Part shown: piece by piece, positions 43,807-53,675 of the stretch
Layout of the letters: each line of letters begins with the position of its first letter
Numbering within the stretch: the first letter of the stretch is position 1
Assembly (NCBI GenBank): GCA_020725555.1
Contig: DYEU01000010.1
Span: 138,980-202,979 of the forward strand
Length of the DNA stretch: 64,000 bases
Source: Desulfatibacillum sp.
GTDB lineage: Bacteria; Desulfobacterota; Desulfobacteria; Desulfobacterales; SpSt-501
Direction: 5' to 3'
Translations under genes and position numbers: made by a program
The notes under the pieces: model-generated
What the model was told of the DNA's origin: nothing
Database searches by the model: none
Seen by the model: only the letters and a program-made list of their open reading frames with translations

Positions 43807-43814
43807 AATGAAAG

Positions 43815-43836
43815 AGGCCCCCGCTACCGGGGGCCT
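43815..43836 (-). terminator. Terminator downstream of the Gly-rich protein gene
   Basis: AGGCCCCCG-CTAC-CGGGGGCCT is a perfect 9-bp stem with a 4-base loop. On the minus strand it is followed by CTTTCATTTC, a T-rich tract, and it lies 23 bases after the stop at 43859. On the plus strand no T run follows, so it mainly serves the minus-strand transcript, though it may also help end the convergent dehydrogenase transcript. Confidence 0.7.
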
Positions 43837-43858
43837 CCCGCGTTCGCATCCGGCTCTT

Positions 43859-44338
43859 CTACTTGGCGGTCGCGCCGAAGCCGGTGCCGTCCTGGGGGCC
43901 GCTGCCCTGGTTGCCCATGCCGTCACCCGGGCCGAAGCCCTTCGCCTGGCCTGTCCCGGGCCCCGGCCCGAAGCCGGTGCCGTCCTGGGGGCCGCTGCCC
44001 TGGTTTCCGGTTCCATCTCCCGGGCCGTAGCCGAATCCCTTGCCCTTCGCCGCCCCCTGGGCCGCTGCAGCGCCGAGCGCCGCACCGGGGCCGGGACCGA
44101 CCGACGCCCCCGGGCCGGGACCAATCGACGCCCCGGGGCCGGGACCTGCCGAGGCCCCCGGCCCGGGCCCTGCGCCGGCGGCGCCGCCGCCACCGCCCCC
44201 CCCCGCTCCGGCCCCGGCGCCGCCTCCGCCGCCACCGGCCCCGGCGCCGCCGCCGCCACCGCCTCCTTTCGCATCAACAGGCGCGACCGCGATCGCAAGC
44301 GACAAGAGCAAGCAAAGCAACATCCAGGACTTCTTCAT
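43859..44338 (-). CDS. Secreted Gly-rich repeat protein of the ECF-sigma locus
   Basis: A 159-residue protein with a standard signal peptide (KKSWMLLCLLLSLAIAVAPVDA). The mature part is almost all low complexity: three Gly runs with Ala, then four 8-residue units GPGPGA-S/A-x (about residues 57-90), and two copies of GDGxGNQGSGPQDGTGFG (C-terminal 60 residues, the second ending in GATAK). No enzyme motif exists. Similar Gly-Asn-Gln-Gly proteins may form extended surface or matrix structures. ATG 44338 has AAAGGAGC about nine bases upstream. The gene has its own ECF-type promoter at 44418-44443 and its own terminator, unlike the four genes upstream. Confidence 0.8.
   Translation of the reverse strand: MKKSWMLLCLLLSLAIAVAPVDAKGGGGGGGAGAGGGGGGAGAGAGGGGGGGAAGAGPGPGASAGPGPGASIGPGPGASVGPGPGAALGAAAAQGAAKGKGFGYGPGDGTGNQGSGPQDGTGFGPGPGTGQAKGFGPGDGMGNQGSGPQDGTGFGATAK
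43876..44005 (-). repeat. Two 37-bp direct repeats inside the Gly-rich gene
   Basis: Positions 43876-43912 and 43969-44005 are identical over 37 bases, 93 bases apart (31 codons, in frame). They encode the two GNQGSGPQDGTGFG units. Identity at the DNA level, beyond the protein, suggests recent duplication or gene conversion. Confidence 0.85.
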
Positions 44339-44417
44339 GATTCTGTGCTCCTTTCCCTGAGACGGAATTGCGGGGTTCGGTGGTGCCCCCTTGCCGAAAA
44401 CCCCGTTTGTCTCATTC

Positions 44418-44443
44418 AACGCAGAAACCCCAACCCGGTTACA
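44418..44443 (-). promoter_or_regulatory. ECF-sigma-type promoter of the Gly-rich protein gene
   Basis: Minus strand TGTAAC (44443-44438), 16-base spacer, CGTT (44421-44418), continuing as CGTTG. The same hexamer, spacing and CGTTG stand upstream of the sigma-factor gene at 46771-46745, while the spacers are unrelated. The leader to ATG 44338 is about 70 bases. Confidence 0.72.
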
Positions 44444-44472
44444 CGTCTCCCCACAGAAACTCGGACGGCTCT

Positions 44473-45363
44473 TCAGCGCCCCCCCCCTGGCCCCCCGCCG
44501 CCTCCCGGTCCCCCGCCGCCCCCTCCCGGGCCGCCGCCCGGGCCGTCCCCGGCGCCGCCTGGGCCTCCTCCTCCCCCGGAGGGCGCGGCGCCTCCCGCAG
44601 CGACACCGTGCGGGGATTGTCCGTGGGCCGTCTCCTGCGCCAGCGCCTGGAGGGCGCTCTGGGGGGACTGGGCGCGGGCCTGGTCGAGGAACGACTGGTG
44701 CATGGCGGCAATGGCCGCCGCCCCCCGACCTCCGGCCAGCGCCCGGGAGACGACCTCGGCGGCGAGATCGGAGGAAACGCCGAAGCGCGACAGATCCCGC
44801 AGCATCCGCAGCGCGGCGGCGGCGAGCTCGGCGGCGGAATCCCCGCGGCGCCCGGCGGAGGCCTCCCGGAGGTTCCGGATCGTGCGCACCGCGTCTTCCT
44901 CGCGCAGCCCGGCGGCGAGACTCTCGGCCAGGATCTCCCCCAGCACCCGAACCTCGCCTGGCTCGGAGACGAGCGTTTTCGCAAGGCCGTAGGCGAGGGC
45001 GTAGCGAGCGCGCACGGCCTCGAGCGCCCCGATCACGCGTTCGGGGGGCACGCGTTTGGAGAGGCCTTCGAACGCCTTGAGCAGCAGCGGCCGGACGGGC
45101 AACCCCTCGGATTGCGCCCGCTCCAGCAGCGCGGTCACCGCCTCCCCCTGCTCGCGGGAAAACCCGGCGGAGCTCATCGCCCCGGCCAGCCATTCGGCTT
45201 CCTCGGCGGCGAAGCCCAGCCGGGCGATCCGGCGCGCCTGCCCGGCAGGGGCCCCCTGTTCTCCCTCTGCGGCGGGGCCCGGGCAGGGGAATGCGGCAAG
45301 CCCGAAGGCCGCCAGAAGCACCCATCCCAACACATGGCGTCTTCTCATCATGGTCGCACTCAT
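44473..45363 (-). CDS. Exported helical protein with Gly/Pro-rich C-terminus (ECF-sigma locus)
   Basis: A 296-residue protein. A basic, hydrophobic N-terminus (RRRHVLGWVLLAAFGLAAF) ending near GPAAEG acts as a signal sequence. Residues about 40-235 are charged helices rich in Ala, Leu, Arg and Glu with no motif I recognise. The last 45 residues are Gly/Pro repeats (GGGGGPGGAGDGPGGGPGG). The tail resembles the mature Gly-rich protein encoded next. ATG 45363 overlaps the preceding stop (ATGA); ATG 45351 is an alternative with GGAG upstream. An envelope location is inferred; the function is unknown. Confidence 0.72.
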   Translation of the reverse strand: MSATMMRRRHVLGWVLLAAFGLAAFPCPGPAAEGEQGAPAGQARRIARLGFAAEEAEWLAGAMSSAGFSREQGEAVTALLERAQSEGLPVRPLLLKAFEGLSKRVPPERVIGALEAVRARYALAYGLAKTLVSEPGEVRVLGEILAESLAAGLREEDAVRTIRNLREASAGRRGDSAAELAAAALRMLRDLSRFGVSSDLAAEVVSRALAGGRGAAAIAAMHQSFLDQARAQSPQSALQALAQETAHGQSPHGVAAGGAAPSGGGGGPGGAGDGPGGGPGGGGGGPGGGGGPGGGR

Positions 45364-45701
45364 CTCCAGGGGGCGGCGTGGGGGTCAAACACGCAATTCC
45401 AGGAGCCGAAATCGTCGCTTTCGCGCAGGGGGCATTCCGGGAGCTCGATCTTTCCGTCCACCCGGAAGCTGTAACGAAACTCGCGCAGACCCGCCCTGCG
45501 GGCCCGCCACAGCCCGAACCCCAAGTGCTCCGCGGGAATGTCCTCCACGGCTTCGGCCGCGGCGAGAAGCGCAACCTCCCGGGCGCCCGGGGCATGCAAG
45601 TAGAGCTCCACGGCCTTTTCCCGCACTTCCAGAAAATGCCGCGTGCAGCCGGCGTTCACGGCCACCGCCGCCGCAAGCATCCCCAGCACCACCCGCCTCA
45701 C
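45360..45701 (-). CDS. Small exported protein with an early-set, glycogen-binding-like fold
   Basis: A 113-residue protein. The hydrophobic N-terminus ends in VNAGC at residue 19, a possible lipobox with an unusual Asn at position -3. The rest (VELYLHAPGAREVALLA, LREFRYSFRVDGKIELPECP and DDFGSWNCVF) has the strand order and the DG-x-x-x-P ... DDFG-x-x-N ending of AMPK-beta/isoamylase early-set (CBM48-like) domains. Cys90 and Cys103 could form a disulfide. It lacks the GSFTGW tryptophan of the upstream gene's domain, so sugar binding may be lost. GTG 45701 overlaps the previous stop. Confidence 0.7.
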   Translation of the reverse strand: MRRVVLGMLAAAVAVNAGCTRHFLEVREKAVELYLHAPGAREVALLAAAEAVEDIPAEHLGFGLWRARRAGLREFRYSFRVDGKIELPECPLRESDDFGSWNCVFDPHAAPWR

Positions 45702-46264
45702 GAGGAGAACGTCACCTCCAGGATCGAATTTTCTCCTCCGAAGTCGTCCTGTTCCCGCAGCGCGACCGTGGGGTCGGCCAGCCGCCGGCCGCCCTCGACG
45801 ATGTAGCTGAAGCGGTGCTCCCCGGGGGGCAGGTCGAGCGTGATCTCCCAGTAGCCCGCGCCCCCGGCCCTCCTCATCGGCAGGCTTCGCCAGCCGGTAA
45901 AGCTGCCGGTAATTTCCACCCGCGCCGCCTCCGGCTGGTAGAGGACGAACCGGTGGGGCCTCAGCGCCTCACCGGCCGGAGCGGGGATCAGGAAAAACCA
46001 GAGGGCCGCCGCCGCGGCCGCGCCCGCGGCGAAGGCCGCAAGGGGCGCCATCCAGCGCCGCAGACGGAACCGAAACGGCTCCGCGACGCGGAGCTCCGGC
46101 AGGGCCGCCTCCCGCGGCTCGGCCCGCAGCCATTTTTCCTGCTCGAGCAGCGCGAGCGCCTCCGCGGCATACTCGCGGCTTGCCTGCACGGCCCGGAGGA
46201 ATTGCTCTTTTTCGTCCAGGTCGAGCTCGTCGTCGATAAACTGGCTGATCCAGGTGGGGTTCAT
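45698..46264 (-). CDS. Anti-sigma-like membrane protein with an AMPK-beta/CBM48-type domain
   Basis: A 188-residue single-pass protein. Residues 1-70 form an acidic helical cytoplasmic tail (SQFIDDELDLDEKEQFL) like the sigma-binding part of anti-sigma factors without the zinc motif. A helix at about 71-93 (WMAPLAAFAAGAAAAAALWFF) spans the membrane. Residues about 104-187 outside form a glycogen-binding-like domain with GSFTGWRSLPM, GYWEITLDLPPGEHRFSY and DDFGGENSILEV, including the two Trp that bind glucan in AMPK-beta (residues 125 and 139). ATG 46264 overlaps the sigma stop (ATGA). Sensing of a sugar polymer is inferred. Confidence 0.78.
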   Translation of the reverse strand: MNPTWISQFIDDELDLDEKEQFLRAVQASREYAAEALALLEQEKWLRAEPREAALPELRVAEPFRFRLRRWMAPLAAFAAGAAAAAALWFFLIPAPAGEALRPHRFVLYQPEAARVEITGSFTGWRSLPMRRAGGAGYWEITLDLPPGEHRFSYIVEGGRRLADPTVALREQDDFGGENSILEVTFSS

Positions 46265-46734
46265 GGCTTCTCCGAATCGAGGAGGCTCCTCAGCCGGCAC
46301 CGCGCCCGGTGGATCTTCACCCGGACGTTGCCTTCGCTCAACCCCGTCAGGGCGGCGATCTCGCGGTAGGAGAGTTCCCCGCCCGCCACGAGGGAGAGGA
46401 GATCCTGATCTTCCTCGTCCAGCCGCTGCAGGGCCGCGAGCGCCCGGCGAGCCTCGTCCCGGGCGAGGAGCCTCTCTTCCAGGCCGGGGGCCTGCGCCTC
46501 CTCCCGCGGTGGGTCGGCCTCGCGCTTGCGCCTGCGCAAGGCGTCGATCAGGAGGTTGCGGCCGATCGTGTAGAGCAGCCGGGCGTTCCAGCGCTCGGCG
46601 GGGTAGGCGGCATAGAGCCGGGTGAAGCTTTCCTGCAGGATGTCGCTCGCCAGGGACGGGTCGGCCGTCCTACGGAAAAGGTAGGCGAAAAACGGCTTTC
46701 GCTGGCTGCGGTAAAAGTGTTGAAAGGGTTCCAC
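46261..46734 (-). CDS. ECF-type RNA polymerase sigma factor
   Basis: A 157-residue sigma factor with region 2 (about 5-70: LASDILQESFTRLYAAYP, ARLLYTIGRNLLIDALRRRK) and region 4 (about 100-150: LSYREIAALTGLSEGNVRVKIHRARCRLRSLL) and no region 1 or 3, as in the ECF class. GTG 46734 is the only start consistent with region 2. It is the first gene of a locus with its anti-sigma-like partner directly downstream, so it probably directs transcription from TGTAAC-N16-CGTT promoters including its own. The predicted leader is only a few bases. Confidence 0.9.
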   Translation of the reverse strand: MEPFQHFYRSQRKPFFAYLFRRTADPSLASDILQESFTRLYAAYPAERWNARLLYTIGRNLLIDALRRRKREADPPREEAQAPGLEERLLARDEARRALAALQRLDEEDQDLLSLVAGGELSYREIAALTGLSEGNVRVKIHRARCRLRSLLDSEKP

Positions 46735-46745
46735 GCACCCATTCC

Positions 46746-46771
46746 AACGAATGAGGGGCGCCGTCGTTACA
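46746..46771 (-). promoter_or_regulatory. ECF-sigma-type autoregulated promoter of the sigma operon
   Basis: Minus strand TGTAAC (46771-46766), 16-base spacer, CGTT (46749-46746), continuing CGTTGGAATG. It is identical in both boxes and spacing to the site at 44418-44443. It starts transcription only about five bases before GTG 46734, so the sigma gene would be nearly leaderless. Confidence 0.75.
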
Positions 46772-46834: not shown

Positions 46835-47260
46835 TCAGAGACGGTAGAGTTCTTTTTCCGCGAGCGGCTGCAGGCCTGCCGAGCGCAGCGGCTCCGCGGC
46901 GGCGGCGAGATCGGGGACCTCGATCACGAGGATCGCCCGCCGGTCGCGTGCGAACCCGTAGGCGTCCTCGACGTTGATCCCCCGCCGGGTGAGCACCGTG
47001 AGCACGGCGTGCAGGCCGCCCGGTTTGTCCTCCACGGCCACCGCGAGGACCGGCCGCTTGGAGGCGAGGATCCCGGCCGCGGTGAGCGCCTGCAACGCGG
47101 CGTCGGGGTCGTTTACGAGAAGCTTGACGACCCCGTGCTCGCCCAGGTCGGAGATCTTGATCGCCCGGATGTTGACCCCGGCCCGGGCGAGCACGCCGGT
47201 GATGGCCTCCAGGCGACCGGGGCGGTTTTCGGCGAAGACGGAGAGATGCCAGGCCGTCAT
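46835..47260 (-). CDS. Tandem ACT-domain protein
   Basis: A 141-residue protein made of two ACT repeats: LSVFAENRPGRLEAITGVLARAGVNIRAIKISD and LAVAVEDKPGGLHAVLTVLTRRGINVEDAYGF. ACT dimers bind amino acids and regulate enzymes. Small ACT proteins of this kind are typically found directly beside phenylacetate-CoA ligase genes, as here, and are believed to sense aromatic amino acids. ATG 47260 is preceded by GGAG. It is the last gene of the long gntR-glcD-TAXI-etf-paaK operon, 20 bases after paaK. Confidence 0.88.
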   Translation of the reverse strand: MTAWHLSVFAENRPGRLEAITGVLARAGVNIRAIKISDLGEHGVVKLLVNDPDAALQALTAAGILASKRPVLAVAVEDKPGGLHAVLTVLTRRGINVEDAYGFARDRRAILVIEVPDLAAAAEPLRSAGLQPLAEKELYRL

Positions 47261-47280
47261 GACGGGCTCCTTGGTTCCGT

Positions 47281-48603
47281 TCAGCTCCCGCGCCGCCGGT
47301 CCAGGACGCGCACGGCCTTGCCCTCGGTGCGGGGAAGCGAGCCGGGCTCGACGAGCTGGACCCGCGGGGTGAAGAGGATCTCGCTTTTGAGGGCGGCGAG
47401 GATTTTCTCCCGCAGGGCCTTGAGGCTCTTCACGTCCCCCTGGAACATCTCGCGCCGCACCTCCACCTCGACGGTCATCACGTCGAGGTCGCCCTCGCGG
47501 TCGAGCACGATGCGGTAGTCCCGGCCCACCTCGGGCATGCCCATGAGGAGGGTCTCCACCTGGATGGGGAAGACGTTCACCCCCTTGACGATGAACATGT
47601 CGTCGGAGCGGCCCTTGATGCGGTCGATGCGGCGGTGGGTCCGGCCGCAGGGGCAGGGCCCGGGCAGAAGGGCCGTCAGGTCGCGCGTGCGGTAGCGGAT
47701 GAGCGGCATGGCCTCGCGGTCGAGCGTCGTGAGCACGAGCTCGCCCTCCTCGCCCTCGGCGACCGGCGTGAGCGTCTTGGGGTCCAGCACCTCGACCAGG
47801 AAGGCGTCCTCCCAGATGTGCATCCCGTTCTGCTCGGGGCATTCGAAGGCGACGCCGGGACCGGCCATCTCGGAGAGGCCGTAGGAGTTGAAGACGCGGA
47901 CGCCGAGCTCCCGCTCGACACGGCGCCGGGTCTCCTCCGAGTAGGGCTCGGCCCCGAGGTAGGCGGTCTTGAGGTCCAGGTCGCGCCGGGGGTCGATCCC
48001 CATCTCCTCGAGCACGGCGAGCAGCCGGAAGGCATAGCTCGGGATGGCGTGGATCACGGTCGTGCCGAAGTCCTGCATGAACTGGACCTGCCGCCGGCTG
48101 TTGCCGGGACCGGCCGGGACGGTCAGCATGCCGAGCCGCTCGGAGCCGTAGTGGAAACCGAGCCCGCCGGTGAACATGCCGTAGCCCGTCATGTTCTGGA
48201 AGACATCGGAGGACCGCGCACCGGTCATGTACATGCAGCGGGCCATGCGCTCGGCCCAGGCCTCGAGGTCCCGCGCGCTGTGCAGGACCACCGTGGCCCG
48301 CCCGGTCGTCCCCGAGGAGGAGTGCAGGCGCACCGCCTCCTCGCGGGAAACGGCGAGAAACCCGAAGGGGTAGCCCTGCCGCAGGTGGTCCTTGGTCGTG
48401 AGCGGCAGGCGCCCGAGGTCCTCCAGACCCCGGATCGCCTCCACGGCGACGCCGGCTTCTTCGAAGAGCCGGCGGTAGAACGGGGAGCGGGCCGCGGCCG
48501 CCAGCGTCCGCCGCAGGCGCTGCTCCTGGAGGGCGCGCAGGCGCTCCCGCGGGAGCGTTTCGATCTCGGGGTCCCAGTAGACCGGGTGGCGGGGGCGGTT
48601 CAT
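47281..48603 (-). CDS. paaK: Phenylacetate-CoA ligase family protein
   Basis: A 440-residue AMP-forming aryl-CoA ligase. The P-loop-like LHSSSGTTGRATVVLHSA, YGMFTGGLGFHYGSERLG, YGLSEMAGPGVAFECP, IRYRTRDLTALLPGPCPCGR and RIKGRSDDMFIVKGVNVFP are characteristic of PaaK. It activates phenylacetate or a similar aryl acid to its CoA thioester. The ATG overlaps the etfA stop (ATGA). The next gene is an ACT protein, the pairing common in aryl-ketoacid metabolism. Substrates other than phenylacetate (indoleacetate, hydroxyphenylacetate) are possible. Confidence 0.9.
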   Translation of the reverse strand: MNRPRHPVYWDPEIETLPRERLRALQEQRLRRTLAAAARSPFYRRLFEEAGVAVEAIRGLEDLGRLPLTTKDHLRQGYPFGFLAVSREEAVRLHSSSGTTGRATVVLHSARDLEAWAERMARCMYMTGARSSDVFQNMTGYGMFTGGLGFHYGSERLGMLTVPAGPGNSRRQVQFMQDFGTTVIHAIPSYAFRLLAVLEEMGIDPRRDLDLKTAYLGAEPYSEETRRRVERELGVRVFNSYGLSEMAGPGVAFECPEQNGMHIWEDAFLVEVLDPKTLTPVAEGEEGELVLTTLDREAMPLIRYRTRDLTALLPGPCPCGRTHRRIDRIKGRSDDMFIVKGVNVFPIQVETLLMGMPEVGRDYRIVLDREGDLDVMTVEVEVRREMFQGDVKSLKALREKILAALKSEILFTPRVQLVEPGSLPRTEGKAVRVLDRRRGS

Positions 48604-49808
48604 CGGGTCTCTTTGCAGGCGGCGGCCGGCAGAAGATCGAGCAGCCGCGGCAGGATCGCCCGGGCGTCCCCCACCACGCCCAGGTCGGCGAGGTCGAAGA
48701 TCGGGGCTTGGGGGTCGGTGTTGATGGCCACGACGCGCTTGGCGGAACTCATGCCGACGACATGCTGGATCGCTCCGCTGATGCCGGCCGCGATGTAGAG
48801 GTCCGGGCCCACCGTCGTCCCCGACTGGCCGACCTGGAGGGTGTGCGGGATCCAGCCGAGCTCGACGATCGCCCGCGAGCCGGCGAGCGCCCCGCCGAGG
48901 CGCTGGGCGATACGGCGCAGGGGCTCGAGGTGCGCCGGGTCCCCCATCCCGCGTCCGGCGGCGACGATGACCCGGGCCTCCTCGATCTTCGCCTCCCCGC
49001 AGGGGATCTCCACCGTCTCCACGACGCGGGTGCGGATGGCGGCCCGGGCGAGCTGGACGGGAAACTCCTCGATGCAAACCGTCCGGCGCTCGTCGGCGGG
49101 CAGGGTGGTGAAGACGTTCGGGCGCACGGTCGCACACTGCGGCCGGGTGTAGGGGGCGACGATGCTCGCCATGATGTTTCCGCCGAAGGCGGGCCGCGTC
49201 TGCACGAGCTGTCCGGAGGCGTCGATCTCGAGCCCGGTGCAGTCCGCGGTGAGCCCGAGGCGCAGGCGGGCGGCGACCCGGGGGGCGAGGTCGCGGCCGT
49301 TGGGGGTCGCGCCGAAGAGGAGGACCGCGGGCTTCTCCCTCGCCACCACGGCCGCGAGCACGGTGGCGAAGGCGTCGGTCGTGTACCGGCCGAGGAGCTC
49401 GTGGCGGCAGGCGAGCACCCGGTCCGCCCCGTGGCGGCAGAGACGCTCGAGGCCGGCCAGGCGGTCATCGCCCAGGACGACGGCGGTGAGCGGCTGCCCC
49501 AGCCGGTCGGAAAGGGCCCGGCCGCGGCCGAGGAGCTCGTAGACCACGCGGCGGGGGTGGAGAAGGCCCTCGGCGGCCTCGCACTCGGCCCAGACGAAGA
49601 CCCCCCGGTAGCGGGAGAGCTCCTCGGGGGAGGCCTGGCGGCGCGCGATGGAAATCGCCGACTGCGGGCAGGCGTTGACGCAGGCGCCGCAGAGCGTGCA
49701 GCGCTCGTCGGGCGCGACCCGTTCCCCCGCGAGCGAAAGTGCCCCGAAGGGGCAGGCCTTCTGGCACAGGCCGCAGCGGTTGCAGATCTCGTGGTCGATC
49801 GTGAGCAT
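48600..49808 (-). CDS. etfA: Electron-transfer flavoprotein alpha with an N-terminal 2x[4Fe-4S] ferredoxin domain
   Basis: A 402-residue EtfA with an added ferredoxin head. CNRCGLCQKACPFGAL and CTLCGACVNACPQSAI (residues about 8-55) give two [4Fe-4S] ligand sets. The EtfA FAD domain follows and ends in the signature VGQSGTTVGPDLYIAAGISGAIQHVVGM and INTDPQAPIFDLADLGVVGD. An EtfA with a ferredoxin extension is known from the Acetobacterium lactate dehydrogenase/EtfAB complex, which uses ferredoxin to drive lactate oxidation by NAD. It sits with etfB and a GlcD-type dehydrogenase gene, so a confurcating complex is likely. paaK overlaps its stop. Confidence 0.9.
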   Translation of the reverse strand: MLTIDHEICNRCGLCQKACPFGALSLAGERVAPDERCTLCGACVNACPQSAISIARRQASPEELSRYRGVFVWAECEAAEGLLHPRRVVYELLGRGRALSDRLGQPLTAVVLGDDRLAGLERLCRHGADRVLACRHELLGRYTTDAFATVLAAVVAREKPAVLLFGATPNGRDLAPRVAARLRLGLTADCTGLEIDASGQLVQTRPAFGGNIMASIVAPYTRPQCATVRPNVFTTLPADERRTVCIEEFPVQLARAAIRTRVVETVEIPCGEAKIEEARVIVAAGRGMGDPAHLEPLRRIAQRLGGALAGSRAIVELGWIPHTLQVGQSGTTVGPDLYIAAGISGAIQHVVGMSSAKRVVAINTDPQAPIFDLADLGVVGDARAILPRLLDLLPAAACKETR

Positions 49809-49813
49809 CGTCC

Positions 49814-50617
49814 TCAGCCCTCGATGAAGCCCTCCTCGCGGAGAAAGGCGGCGATCGCCCGTGCCGCCTCGGCGGGCTCAAGCCCTTCGACCCGGCGGCC
49901 CCCTTTTTTGGGCGGCGGCGGGAAGACCTTCACGACCTGGGTGAAGGAGCCGGCAAGGCCCAGCTCGGATTCCTTGAGGGGCAGCTCGGATGCGCCCAGG
50001 CGGCGGATCTCCCTCTTGCGCGCGGCGATCACCGCGGCCAGCGAGGGCATGCGGCGCACCGGCTCCCCCTTGCTCGCCGAGACGAGGGCCGGCAGCCTGG
50101 CCTCGACCACCTCGTAGCCGGTCTCGATTTCGCGCCGCACGCGGATCCGCTTGCCGTTCGCCGCCCACGACATCTCCACCCCGTACATGATCTGGGGGAT
50201 CCCCAGGATCTCGGCCAGCTCCGGTCCCACCTGGGCCGTGTCACCGTCGATCGCCTGCTTGCCCGCGAGGATGAGGTCGAAGTCGGGGTGGGTCGCGCGG
50301 ATCACCGCGGCCAGGGTCAGCGCCGTCGCCCAGGTGTCGGCGCCGGCAAAGCGGCGGTCCGAGGCGAGAACGGCCCGGTCCGCGCCCAGCTCGAGGCAGC
50401 GGACGAGCGCCGCCTCGGCCTGGGGCGGACCCATGGTGAGGGCGACGATCTCCGTCCCCGGCAGCGCCGCCTTCAGGCGCGCGGCGTGGTCGAGCGCGTA
50501 CTCGCAGAAGGGGTTCAGGATCGAGGCGACCCCTTCCCGGATCAGGGTCCCGGTTTCGGGATCGACCCGGACGTCGGTGATTTCGGGGACCTGTTTCACG
50601 CAGACGAGGAGTTTCAT
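49814..50617 (-). CDS. etfB: Electron-transfer flavoprotein beta subunit
   Basis: A 267-residue EtfB. KLLVCVKQVPEITDVRVDPETG starts the fold, and GKQAIDGDTAQVGPELAEILGIPQI carries the DGDTAQVGP segment seen in bifurcating Etfs rather than the DDxxQTGQ of simple ones. EtfB binds FAD and, in bifurcating types, NAD(H). ATG 50617 is chosen. Five bases separate it from etfA. It lies downstream of the TAXI permease gene. Confidence 0.92.
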   Translation of the reverse strand: MKLLVCVKQVPEITDVRVDPETGTLIREGVASILNPFCEYALDHAARLKAALPGTEIVALTMGPPQAEAALVRCLELGADRAVLASDRRFAGADTWATALTLAAVIRATHPDFDLILAGKQAIDGDTAQVGPELAEILGIPQIMYGVEMSWAANGKRIRVRREIETGYEVVEARLPALVSASKGEPVRRMPSLAAVIAARKREIRRLGASELPLKESELGLAGSFTQVVKVFPPPPKKGGRRVEGLEPAEAARAIAAFLREEGFIEG

Positions 50618-50642
50618 GCGCCGTCCGTCCCTCGGATGCCGA

Positions 50643-52610
50643 TCAGCCGGCGGTCGCCGTAGCCGGCCTGCGGACCCATTTCTGCAGGGCCGCCGCGAGG
50701 AGAAAACACGCAAGCCCCACCGCATCGGTGAGCCCCTCGGGGACGATGAGGCATCCCGCGGCGACGAAGAGCAGAAGCCGCTCAAGCAGGCTGCAGCCCC
50801 GGAAGAGCCAGTTTTCGATCGCCCCGCTGATGGCGACGAGCCCCACGGCGGCCGTGACCAGGGCCTGCACCAGGCGCAGCGCCGTGTACTCGCCGGTGAG
50901 CAGGAGCATGGGCGAGTAGACCGCAAGGTAGGGGATCAGGAAGCCCGCGATCGCCAGCCGGGTCGAAATCCAGCCCACGCGGTAGGGCGGGGCGCCCGCG
51001 ATCCCCGCGCCGGTGAAGGCGGCCAGGCAGACGGGGGGGGTCAGGTTGGAGAGGCAGGCGTAGTAAAAGACGAAGAAATGGGCGACCAGCGGCGGGACGT
51101 GCAGCTTGATCAGGGCGGGGGCGGCGATCGTGGCGGCGACGATGTAGCAGGCCGTCGTCGGCAGCCCCATCCCCAGGATGATGCAGGTGATCATCGTGAG
51201 GACCAGGGTGACGATCAGGATCCCCTGGGAGAGGCCCAGGATGTTGGCGCCGAAGGTGAGCCCGAGGCTTGTCAGCGAGCTCACGCCGACGACGAAGCCG
51301 ACCACGGCGCAGGCGACGGCCACCCCCAGGGCGCCGCGGGCGCCCGACTCCAGGGCCTTGAGAAGCCCGTGGAACGTGAGCCGCGTCTCCCGGCTGAGGA
51401 AACTCGCCGCGATGGTGATGAAGATGGTGATGAAGGCGGCATAGAGCGGGGTGATCCCCCGCAGGAGCAGCAAGACGATGGCCGCGATCGGAATCAGCAG
51501 GTGGCCCTGGGCCTTGAGGGTCTTCCCCAGGCTGGGCAGCTCCTCCCGCGGCAGTCCCTTCAGGCCGATTTTGCGCGCCTCCTGGTGCACCATGCAGAAG
51601 ACGGCGAAGTAGTAGAAGAAGGCCGGGATCACGGCCGCGATCATGATCGTCGTGTAGGACTCGCCCAGGAACTCGGCCATGACGAAGGCCGCCGCCCCCA
51701 TCACCGGGGGCATGATCTGGCCGCCCGTCGAGGCGACGGCCTCCACGGCGCCGGCGAAGGCCGGCCGGTAGCCGATTCCTTTCATGAGCGGAATGGTGAA
51801 GGCCCCGGTGGTGGCGACGTTGGCGACCGCGCTGCCGTTGATCATGCCGAGCATGCCGCTGGCGAATATGCTCACCTTGGCCGGCCCGCCCGCGGTGTGC
51901 CCGGCGATGGCCATGGAGAGCGCGTTGAAAAAGCGCGCCATGCCCGTCTGCTGGAGGAAGGCCCCGAAGAGGATGAAGAGAAAGATGTAGGTCGAGGAGA
52001 CCCCGAGAGCCACGCCGAAGATCCCCTCGGTGGTGAGAAACATGTGGTCGATGATCCGCTCGAGCGAATAGCCGCGGTGCCCGAACTGGCCGGGGATGAG
52101 GTTTCCGTACAGGGCGTAGAGGACGAAGAGGACGGCCATGATCGGGAGCTCGATCCCCGTGGCGCGGCGGGCGGCCTCGAGCACGAGGAGGCAGAGGACC
52201 CCGCCGGTGAAGATGTCCAGGGCGGTCGTCACCCCCCCGCTCAGGGCGATGCGGTCGTACTGCGTGAGCAGGTAGATCTCGACCGCCACGGCGAGCGCCG
52301 CCAGCCCGTAATCCCAGAGCGAAACCCGGCCCCGCGGGCTGCGGCGGCGGGCGGGGTAGAGAAGAAAGATCAGCACCAGGACGAAGCAGAGGTGGATGCT
52401 GCGCTGCTTGATCGCCTCGAGCAGCCCGATGCCCGCGGTGTAGAGGTGGAAGAGGGACATGGCGATCGCGATCGTCGAGACGGCGATCGCCATGGGACCG
52501 GCGAGCTTCCGGTAGCGCGACTCGGCGTCGTATTTCCGGGCGATCTCCTCGGCTCGCTCATCCTTCTCGTCCCGGGTGAAGGCCTCAATCGCCTGCTTGT
52601 CGATGGTCAT
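50643..52610 (-). CDS. TAXI-type TRAP transporter fused membrane subunit (DctQM)
   Basis: A 655-residue permease that joins the small DctQ-like part (first about 180 residues, four helices) to the large DctM-like part, as in TAXI-TRAP systems. GVSSTYIFLFILFGAFLQQTG, GMLGMINGSAVANVATTGAFTIPLM, GGQIMPPVMGAAAFVMAEFLG and NLTPPVCLAAFTGAGIAG are signatures. It uses a Na+ or H+ gradient to import the ligand brought by the TAXI protein. ATG 52610 is preceded by GGGAGGGGG. The ligand is likely the acid oxidised by the GlcD-type enzyme encoded upstream. Confidence 0.93.
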   Translation of the reverse strand: MTIDKQAIEAFTRDEKDERAEEIARKYDAESRYRKLAGPMAIAVSTIAIAMSLFHLYTAGIGLLEAIKQRSIHLCFVLVLIFLLYPARRRSPRGRVSLWDYGLAALAVAVEIYLLTQYDRIALSGGVTTALDIFTGGVLCLLVLEAARRATGIELPIMAVLFVLYALYGNLIPGQFGHRGYSLERIIDHMFLTTEGIFGVALGVSSTYIFLFILFGAFLQQTGMARFFNALSMAIAGHTAGGPAKVSIFASGMLGMINGSAVANVATTGAFTIPLMKGIGYRPAFAGAVEAVASTGGQIMPPVMGAAAFVMAEFLGESYTTIMIAAVIPAFFYYFAVFCMVHQEARKIGLKGLPREELPSLGKTLKAQGHLLIPIAAIVLLLLRGITPLYAAFITIFITIAASFLSRETRLTFHGLLKALESGARGALGVAVACAVVGFVVGVSSLTSLGLTFGANILGLSQGILIVTLVLTMITCIILGMGLPTTACYIVAATIAAPALIKLHVPPLVAHFFVFYYACLSNLTPPVCLAAFTGAGIAGAPPYRVGWISTRLAIAGFLIPYLAVYSPMLLLTGEYTALRLVQALVTAAVGLVAISGAIENWLFRGCSLLERLLLFVAAGCLIVPEGLTDAVGLACFLLAAALQKWVRRPATATAG

Positions 52611-52706
52611 CGGTTCCCCCTCCCACGGGCGGGCGCGGGAAGCATCTCCCGCCGGTTGCCGGTCCCGTGTCGAATGCGGGGGCGCCCCCGCCGCGAAAGA
52701 TGGCGC

Positions 52707-53675
52707 CTATTTCAGGATCCCGATCTCCCTGTAGTATTTCTCCGCCCCGGGGTGCAGCGGGACGGTCATGCCTTTCAGCGCGTTTTCGGGCTGGATTCCC
52801 TGGGCGGCCTTGTGGGCGGCGACGAGGTCGGCCAGGTTCTCATAGATCGTCCGCGTGAAGCGGTAGACGAGGTCCTCCTTGAGATCCTCGCGGCAGATCA
52901 GGATGTTGGCGACGGCCACGGTGCGCACGTCCTCATCCTGGCCCATGTAGGTCCCCTTGGGGATCACGAACTCGTAGTACCAGGGCATCTTCTCCACGAG
53001 CTCGCGGATCTTTTCGGGTTCGAGCGAGAGCAGCCGCAGCTTGACCGAGGCGGCGACGTCCATCACCGCGGCGGTCGGCAGGCCGCCCGCGATGAGAATG
53101 CCGGAGGTGCGGCCGTCCTTGAGGGCGTTTGCCGCCTCGCCGTAGCCCAGGTAGTCGGCCTTCACGTTCTTCCTCTCGCGGTAGTCCAGGCCGTAGAGGC
53201 CGAGGATTTCACGGCTGTTCACCTCTGTCGCGCTCCCCACGGCCCCTGGGACGAACCCCTTGCCCTCGAGGTCTTTCACCGAGCGGATGCCCGAATCGGC
53301 CGCGACGGCGATCTGCATCACGTTCGGGTAAAGGTGGGTGATCCCGCGGAGCATCTTGACCGGCTTGTCCTTGAACATCTCCAGGCCGTTGTAGGCGTAG
53401 TAGGCGACCCCGTTCTGCGCGAAGGCCACTTCCGCTTCCTTCTTCTGCATGAGCAGGACGTTCTGGGGGGTTCCCGCCGTCGCCTGGGCCGAGGCCTTCA
53501 CGCCAGGGACCTTGGTGTTGAAGAGCTGGGCCATGGCGTTGCCCATGGGGTAGTAGACGCCGGCCGTCGTGGCGGTCGCGATGTTGATGTTCTCGAGCCC
53601 GAAGGCGACTCCGGGCAGAAGGACCGCAACGGCGGCGATCCAGGCCCACAGATTCCCTCTGCCGATATTCCTCAT
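52707..53675 (-). CDS. TAXI-family TRAP solute-binding protein
   Basis: A 322-residue periplasmic protein with a signal peptide ending near GVAFG. The mature start ENINIATATTAGVYYPMGNAMAQLFN, TAGTPQNVLLMQKKEAEVAFAQNGVAYYAY and LRGITHLYPNVMQIAVAADSGIRSVKDLEGK belong to the TAXI family (TIGR02122-type), with few characterised ligands (glutamate, 2-oxoglutarate, aromatic/lactate-like acids). ATG has AAAGGAGG about eight bases upstream. It lies between glcD and the DctQM gene. Confidence 0.92.
   Translation of the reverse strand: MRNIGRGNLWAWIAAVAVLLPGVAFGLENINIATATTAGVYYPMGNAMAQLFNTKVPGVKASAQATAGTPQNVLLMQKKEAEVAFAQNGVAYYAYNGLEMFKDKPVKMLRGITHLYPNVMQIAVAADSGIRSVKDLEGKGFVPGAVGSATEVNSREILGLYGLDYRERKNVKADYLGYGEAANALKDGRTSGILIAGGLPTAAVMDVAASVKLRLLSLEPEKIRELVEKMPWYYEFVIPKGTYMGQDEDVRTVAVANILICREDLKEDLVYRFTRTIYENLADLVAAHKAAQGIQPENALKGMTVPLHPGAEKYYREIGILK

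Follow-up and report, generated by a model that had tools for sequence, protein, structure and literature searches.

A putative envelope-sensing sigma factor module with a CBM48-type membrane partner and Gly-rich targets in Desulfobacterota and Deferribacterota

Sigma factors of the extracytoplasmic function (ECF) type are usually held by a membrane anti-sigma factor encoded beside them, and RpoE–RseA and SigW–RsiW are the described systems closest to the locus considered here, which lies at positions 43859–46771 of a 64,000-nucleotide stretch of DNA from Desulfatibacillum sp., a bacterium of the sulfate-reducer type (contig DYEU01000010.1, hereafter the window). As in these systems, the locus encodes a sigma factor with regions 2 and 4 only and an overlapping membrane partner that comprises a cytosolic N-terminal part, one transmembrane segment and an outer domain, and the predicted autoregulated promoter has an AAC-containing −35 element and a CGT −10 element. 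Unlike in these systems, the outer domain has the AMPK-beta/CBM48 fold (carbohydrate-binding module family 48), the N-terminal part is not recognized by known anti-sigma models, and a lipoprotein and an exported protein, termed Hel here, are fixed extra partners. The outer domain shares its sequence family, its fold and a GSFxxW motif containing the first sugar-stacking Trp with the glycogen- or starch-binding modules of AMPK beta-1, SNF1-beta and SEX4, and the positions of L146 (as Phe) and N150 are also kept, whereas its location is extracytoplasmic, it is joined to a sigma regulator and the positions of W133, K126 and T148 are changed. As in RseA–RseB, an exported helper is encoded with the sigma factor and the membrane partner; unlike RseB, Hel is all-helical, has no significant match in the PDB and appears to be itself a target of the sigma factor in many genomes. 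The nearest idea is found in the ECF52 sigma factor SCO4117 of Streptomyces, in which a carbohydrate-binding domain is fused to the sigma factor itself (PMC8999054). There too ECF control is linked to a carbohydrate-binding domain on the outer side of the membrane, whereas here the domain is carried by a separate membrane protein and belongs to another fold family. Literature searches for anti-sigma factors with AMPK1_CBM, CBM48, early-set or glycogen-binding domains, or for Gly-rich regulons, returned no paper on this system, which does not prove that it has never been described. The cassette appears to be an undescribed variant of the standard ECF circuit, in which an unusual sensor fold is combined with fixed partners from an undescribed family and a narrow regulon of glycine-rich (Gly-rich) proteins.

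The locus probably represents an envelope-sensing ECF sigma module together with its regulon, and its gene content, domain folds, conserved cassette and shared promoter are all supported by sequence comparison. In this module the cytosolic N-terminal part of the membrane protein would hold the sigma factor, and the external CBM48-type domain would monitor envelope conditions, probably with the help of the CBM48-like lipoprotein and of the exported Hel. The sigma factor would be freed by a signal, for which a glycan of the envelope or of an exopolysaccharide at the altered sugar site is the most likely candidate, and would then transcribe its own four-gene operon from promoter P1 and the gene for the Gly-rich secreted protein from promoter P2. 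In other species the sigma factor would also use an additional promoter immediately 5′ of hel, and in a few species the gene for a di-haem peroxidase would be a further target. The features of the locus are as follows.

46746–46771, minus strand: P1, ECF-type promoter TGTAAC-N16-CGTT 5′ of the sigma gene (one of two matches in the genome)
46261–46734, minus strand: ECF sigma factor, 157 residues, GTG start (Pfam Sigma70_r2 and Sigma70_r4_2)
45698–46264, minus strand: putative anti-sigma factor, a membrane protein with an external AMPK-beta/CBM48 domain (Pfam PF16561, hydropathy, 48 homologues)
45360–45701, minus strand: lipoprotein with a degenerate CBM48-like domain (HHalign, AlphaFold2 with Foldseek, Cys19)
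44473–45363, minus strand: Hel, exported all-helical protein with a Gly/Pro tail (AlphaFold2, linkage in 23 of 23 genomes)
44418–44443, minus strand: P2, ECF-type promoter TGTAAC-N16-CGTT 5′ of the Gly-rich gene (the other genome match, kept in sister genomes)
43859–44338, minus strand: Gly-rich secreted protein with the C-terminal sequence GPGDGMGNQGSGPQDGTGFGATAK (signal peptide, codon-position test, homologues with the same promoter)
43811–43837, minus strand: likely intrinsic terminator, GAGGCCCCC ... GGGGGCCTC followed by TTT (direct reading of the sequence)

The original prediction, made from the window alone, had described these five minus-strand genes in the order sigma factor, membrane protein, small exported protein, helical protein and Gly-rich protein, with 4-bp overlaps between the first four; the genes were recovered at the same coordinates, each overlap spans exactly 4 nt (ATGA or GTGA), and the GSFTGW and GYW motifs ascribed to the membrane protein were located in it. 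It had also proposed looking for the same gene order elsewhere. When an alignment of the membrane protein was used to scan 84,980 species genomes, 54 cassette loci were found, mostly in Desulfobacterota (Desulfobacterales, Desulfobulbaceae, Syntrophales and others) and Deferribacterota (Denitrovibrio, Seleniivibrio and Calditerrivibrio), and the order sigma factor, sensor, lipoprotein and Hel is conserved in nearly all of them. Since about 50 loci share this order although only the membrane protein was used to find them, the arrangement is far above chance. Clustering of the neighbouring genes revealed no further conserved neighbours around the cassette beyond synteny among close relatives, and the four genes therefore form a unit. 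The cassette recurs in the cultured species Desulfogranum japonicum, Desulfobulbus rhabdoformis, Desulfoluna limicola and Desulforhopalus singaporensis, so that the module is open to experiment. One cassette, in a metagenome-assembled genome labelled Flavobacteriaceae (L114), closely resembles that of a Desulfobacterales metagenome-assembled genome (L104); for the former, a wrong label or a mixed bin is the probable explanation.

The pattern TGTAAC-N16-CGTT has two matches in the whole 3.59-Mb genome, one before the sigma gene and one before the Gly-rich gene (reversed control, 0), and the distance from the promoter end to the start codon is 11 and 79 nt, respectively. About 1.6 matches per genome are expected from base composition, and the argument therefore rests on the position of the matches and not on their number. 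In each of three sister genomes the extended pattern TGTAAC-N16-CGTTA occurs exactly twice, again before the sigma gene and before the Gly-rich gene. Across the 54 loci, which amount to 505 kb, 85 promoter sites were found versus 4 in the reversed controls; in 38 of 52 loci a site stands before the sigma gene, with few exceptions 35–51 bp from the start (mode 37), and in 23 of 48 loci one stands before hel, although these counts are not independent, as some loci are close relatives. Where hel has no site of its own, a site is often found before a Gly-rich gene located downstream, divergently or upstream. In one genome (G060) two sites are found megabases away from the cassette, both of them before a Gly-rich gene, and when the proteins of this genome were searched independently for the Gly motif, those two site-bearing genes and no others were returned; a third site in the same genome looks like chance. 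A stricter pattern gave two matches in 146 genomes of the order, both within cassettes, and an earlier match in another genome led to a sigma gene of the cassette type that is truncated at the end of a contig. Genomes that lack the cassette show no enrichment of the site relative to the control; the genome-wide scans used fixed patterns, by which weak sites are missed. Judged by this conservation, the sigma factor appears to recognize its own ECF-type promoter, and the control of the Gly-rich secreted protein by the sigma factor, as originally predicted, is backed by the promoter that the two genes have in common.

The product of the second promoter appears to be genuine. Comparison of the Gly-rich frame with its copy in a sister genome gave 14, 16 and 69 differences at codon positions 1, 2 and 3, respectively, which indicates a real coding frame under purifying selection despite a Gly content of 40%. 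The Gly-rich proteins have in common a signal peptide and, at the C terminus, a motif of the type GPGDGTGNxGxGPxDGTG(Y/F)G, and the protein from Calditerrivibrio, a member of another phylum, is 86 residues long and ends in DGTGFGATAK, with letters identical to those of the window protein. Pfam provided no identity for these proteins.

The sigma factor, with 157 residues close to the roughly 160–200 typical of ECF factors, consists of regions 2 and 4, with region 3 absent; Pfam Sigma70_r2 and Sigma70_r4_2 both score above cut-off, and the match to the NCBIfam sigma70-ECF model is 73.4 bits (cut-off 42.9). The membrane protein is composed of an N-terminal part (residues 1–65) with an invariant DDEL-type sequence, one transmembrane segment at about residues 75–93 and an external domain (residues 105–185), and the hydropathy profile places an Arg-rich flank on the N-terminal side of the sole hydrophobic stretch (residues 72–97). 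The pairing that had been proposed, an ECF-type sigma factor with an anti-sigma-like membrane protein bearing an AMPK-beta-type outer domain, is thus retained, and the membrane protein is most likely an anti-sigma factor that would inhibit the sigma factor via its N-terminal part. An anti-sigma factor of the zinc-finger type was rejected, as the HxxxCxxC motif is absent from the 48 homologues.

The external domain matches Pfam PF16561, the AMPK-beta glycogen-recognition domain, with 43.2 bits (cut-off 26.8, E = 4.5e-11); the AMPK1_CBM/CBM48 family is matched in 48 of 48 homologues of the membrane protein, and phmmer aligns the domain with the solved glycogen-binding domain of AMPK beta-1 (E = 2.3e-6). 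The lipoprotein, in which Cys19 is invariant in 51 of 51 homologues and a pair of cysteines (C90 and C103) is almost invariant, scores 16.0 bits against Pfam CBM48, below the cut-off of 22.4. Profile comparison with HHalign nevertheless relates it to the sensor domain of the membrane protein (98.8%, E = 1.4e-16), so that the two look like a duplicated pair. The AlphaFold2 model of the lipoprotein (predicted local distance difference test, pLDDT, of 90) was matched by Foldseek to SEX4, AMPK-beta, SNF1-beta and other CBM48 domains with a probability of 1.00, and the template-modelling score normalized by the query is about 0.6 with SEX4 and AMPK-beta. The suggestion of a second, degenerate early-set domain in the small exported protein is borne out by this fold comparison, in which SEX4 and AMPK-beta are best, and both external domains align with early-set domains, that of the membrane protein by sequence and that of the lipoprotein by fold. 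Of the refuting conditions set out in the original prediction, none of those examined here applied. At L041/L121 in G005, the lipoprotein and the membrane protein form a single frame of 278 residues through a deletion within the CBM domain, which is either a sequencing error or a real loss.

The AlphaFold2 model of Hel is all-helical (pLDDT 92, predicted template-modelling score 0.84). Foldseek gave no match in the PDB below E = 1e-3, no sequence match was found in the PDB and no convincing family in Pfam or NCBIfam, and Hel corresponds to RseB neither in sequence family nor in fold; it apparently represents a protein family without a description. Of 198 genomes sampled evenly across the phylum, 23 contain Hel, alongside a CBM48 anti-sigma-like gene in 23 of 23 and a sigma gene in 22 of 23. 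Of these Hel-bearing genomes, 14 of 23 carry a divergent form of the module, type B, which has no separate lipoprotein and, in the stretch examined, does not show this promoter. Since Hel keeps constant company with the CBM48 anti-sigma-like protein even where the lipoprotein is missing, it is the protein most likely to be an obligatory partner. The type B modules (L180–L193) occur in other families of the same phylum; their Hel mostly has about 200 residues and mostly lacks the Gly tail, and it is encoded with a sigma factor and a CBM48 anti-sigma-like protein.

For the sugar site, we take W100, K126, W133, L146, T148 and N150 to be the sugar-contact positions of AMPK beta-1. The equivalents of W100, L146 and N150 (W125, F175 and N179) are Trp, Phe and Asn in 48, 47 and 46 of the 48 sensors, respectively. 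Several observations weigh against the envelope-sensing module: the equivalents of K126, W133 and T148 are mostly replaced in the 48 sensors, so that three of six AMPK contact positions are changed; the binding Trp is lost from the lipoprotein, with Phe or Tyr in its place in 49 of 51 homologues; no known anti-sigma domain scores above cut-off in the membrane protein (zf-HC2 is weak in 4 of 48 homologues); no relative of its N-terminal part was found in the PDB; and the exact site before the sigma gene is missing in about a quarter of the loci. The membrane protein is a member of CBM48 by homology, as its score is above the cut-off, although its contact set is incomplete; with the sugar site only half kept, glucan binding stays a candidate function.

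That a glycan is the signal may be put at close to, but under, an even chance, and the near invariance of three contact positions places it slightly ahead of protein docking, the two being nearly even. In the latter explanation, which is plausible but falls somewhat further short of even, the CBM48-type domain would be a protein docking site at which Hel, the lipoprotein or undelivered Gly-rich product triggers or blocks the release of the sigma factor in an RseB–RseA-like manner, and the module would monitor the secretion of its own products. The unbroken association of Hel with the CBM48 protein, the paralogy of the lipoprotein with the sensor domain and the replaced half of the sugar site would fit such docking, whereas the conserved Trp, Phe and Asn would not be expected from it and Hel has no RseB-like fold match. 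It is considerably less probable that the membrane protein is a positive partner or scaffold, with the sigma factor controlled mainly by autoregulated transcription from the site before its gene; the absence of a recognized anti-sigma domain and of a zinc motif would allow this, but the zinc motif is missing in about 44% of class I anti-sigma domains (PMC7406223), and the gene order, translational coupling, single transmembrane segment and invariant N-terminal part are as expected of a membrane anti-sigma factor. The explanation that the Gly-rich frame and its promoter match arose by chance, for which the 70% GC content of the window with its many spurious overlapping open reading frames and the expected number of promoter matches might be invoked, is already contradicted by the position of both matches, by the repetition of the pattern in sister genomes and at unlinked Gly-rich genes and by the selection seen at codon positions, and has a negligible probability.

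Within the envelope-sensing module, we infer that the Gly-rich products have their final location and role in an extracellular matrix or surface layer. In some genomes the promoter site precedes a gene for a di-haem cytochrome c peroxidase (PF03150, CCP_MauG), and G060 has one of these genes after a Gly-rich gene (L141, contig C1 near 444 kb). Di-haem peroxidases of the MauG type can modify other proteins, and these enzymes might therefore act on the Gly-rich product. The most extended scheme, in which a glycan-sensing switch of anaerobic Desulfobacterota and Deferribacterota leads from an outer AMPK-beta-type domain to a Gly-rich matrix with Hel and, in some species, to MauG-type oxidation or cross-linking, is unlikely to hold in full. 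The envelope-sensing module offers a testable circuit of sensor, sigma factor, promoter and targets for three protein families for which no described role was found, namely the CBM48 anti-sigma factors, the helical Hel and the GPGDGTGN Gly-rich secreted proteins; if true, it would mean that the AMPK-beta glycogen-sensing fold has been carried into extracytoplasmic signalling.

Peroxidase genes behind the promoter motif, or behind a Gly-rich gene carrying it, were seen at L082:1789, L106:2595, L145 and L141. The same promoter also precedes genes for small exported proteins with a DQTRxxDRLKDGSC-like pattern (L106:4399, L115:4312 and L152), which are not Gly-rich in L106 and L152; these are a possible second target family. 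The long overlapping open reading frames in other frames of the locus were set aside as composition artefacts. On the minus strand at positions 46835–53675 of the window, the cassette is adjoined by genes for an ACT-like protein, a CoA ligase, ferredoxin/flavoprotein-like proteins and a transporter, which do not travel with the cassette and are syntenic in a sister genome only.

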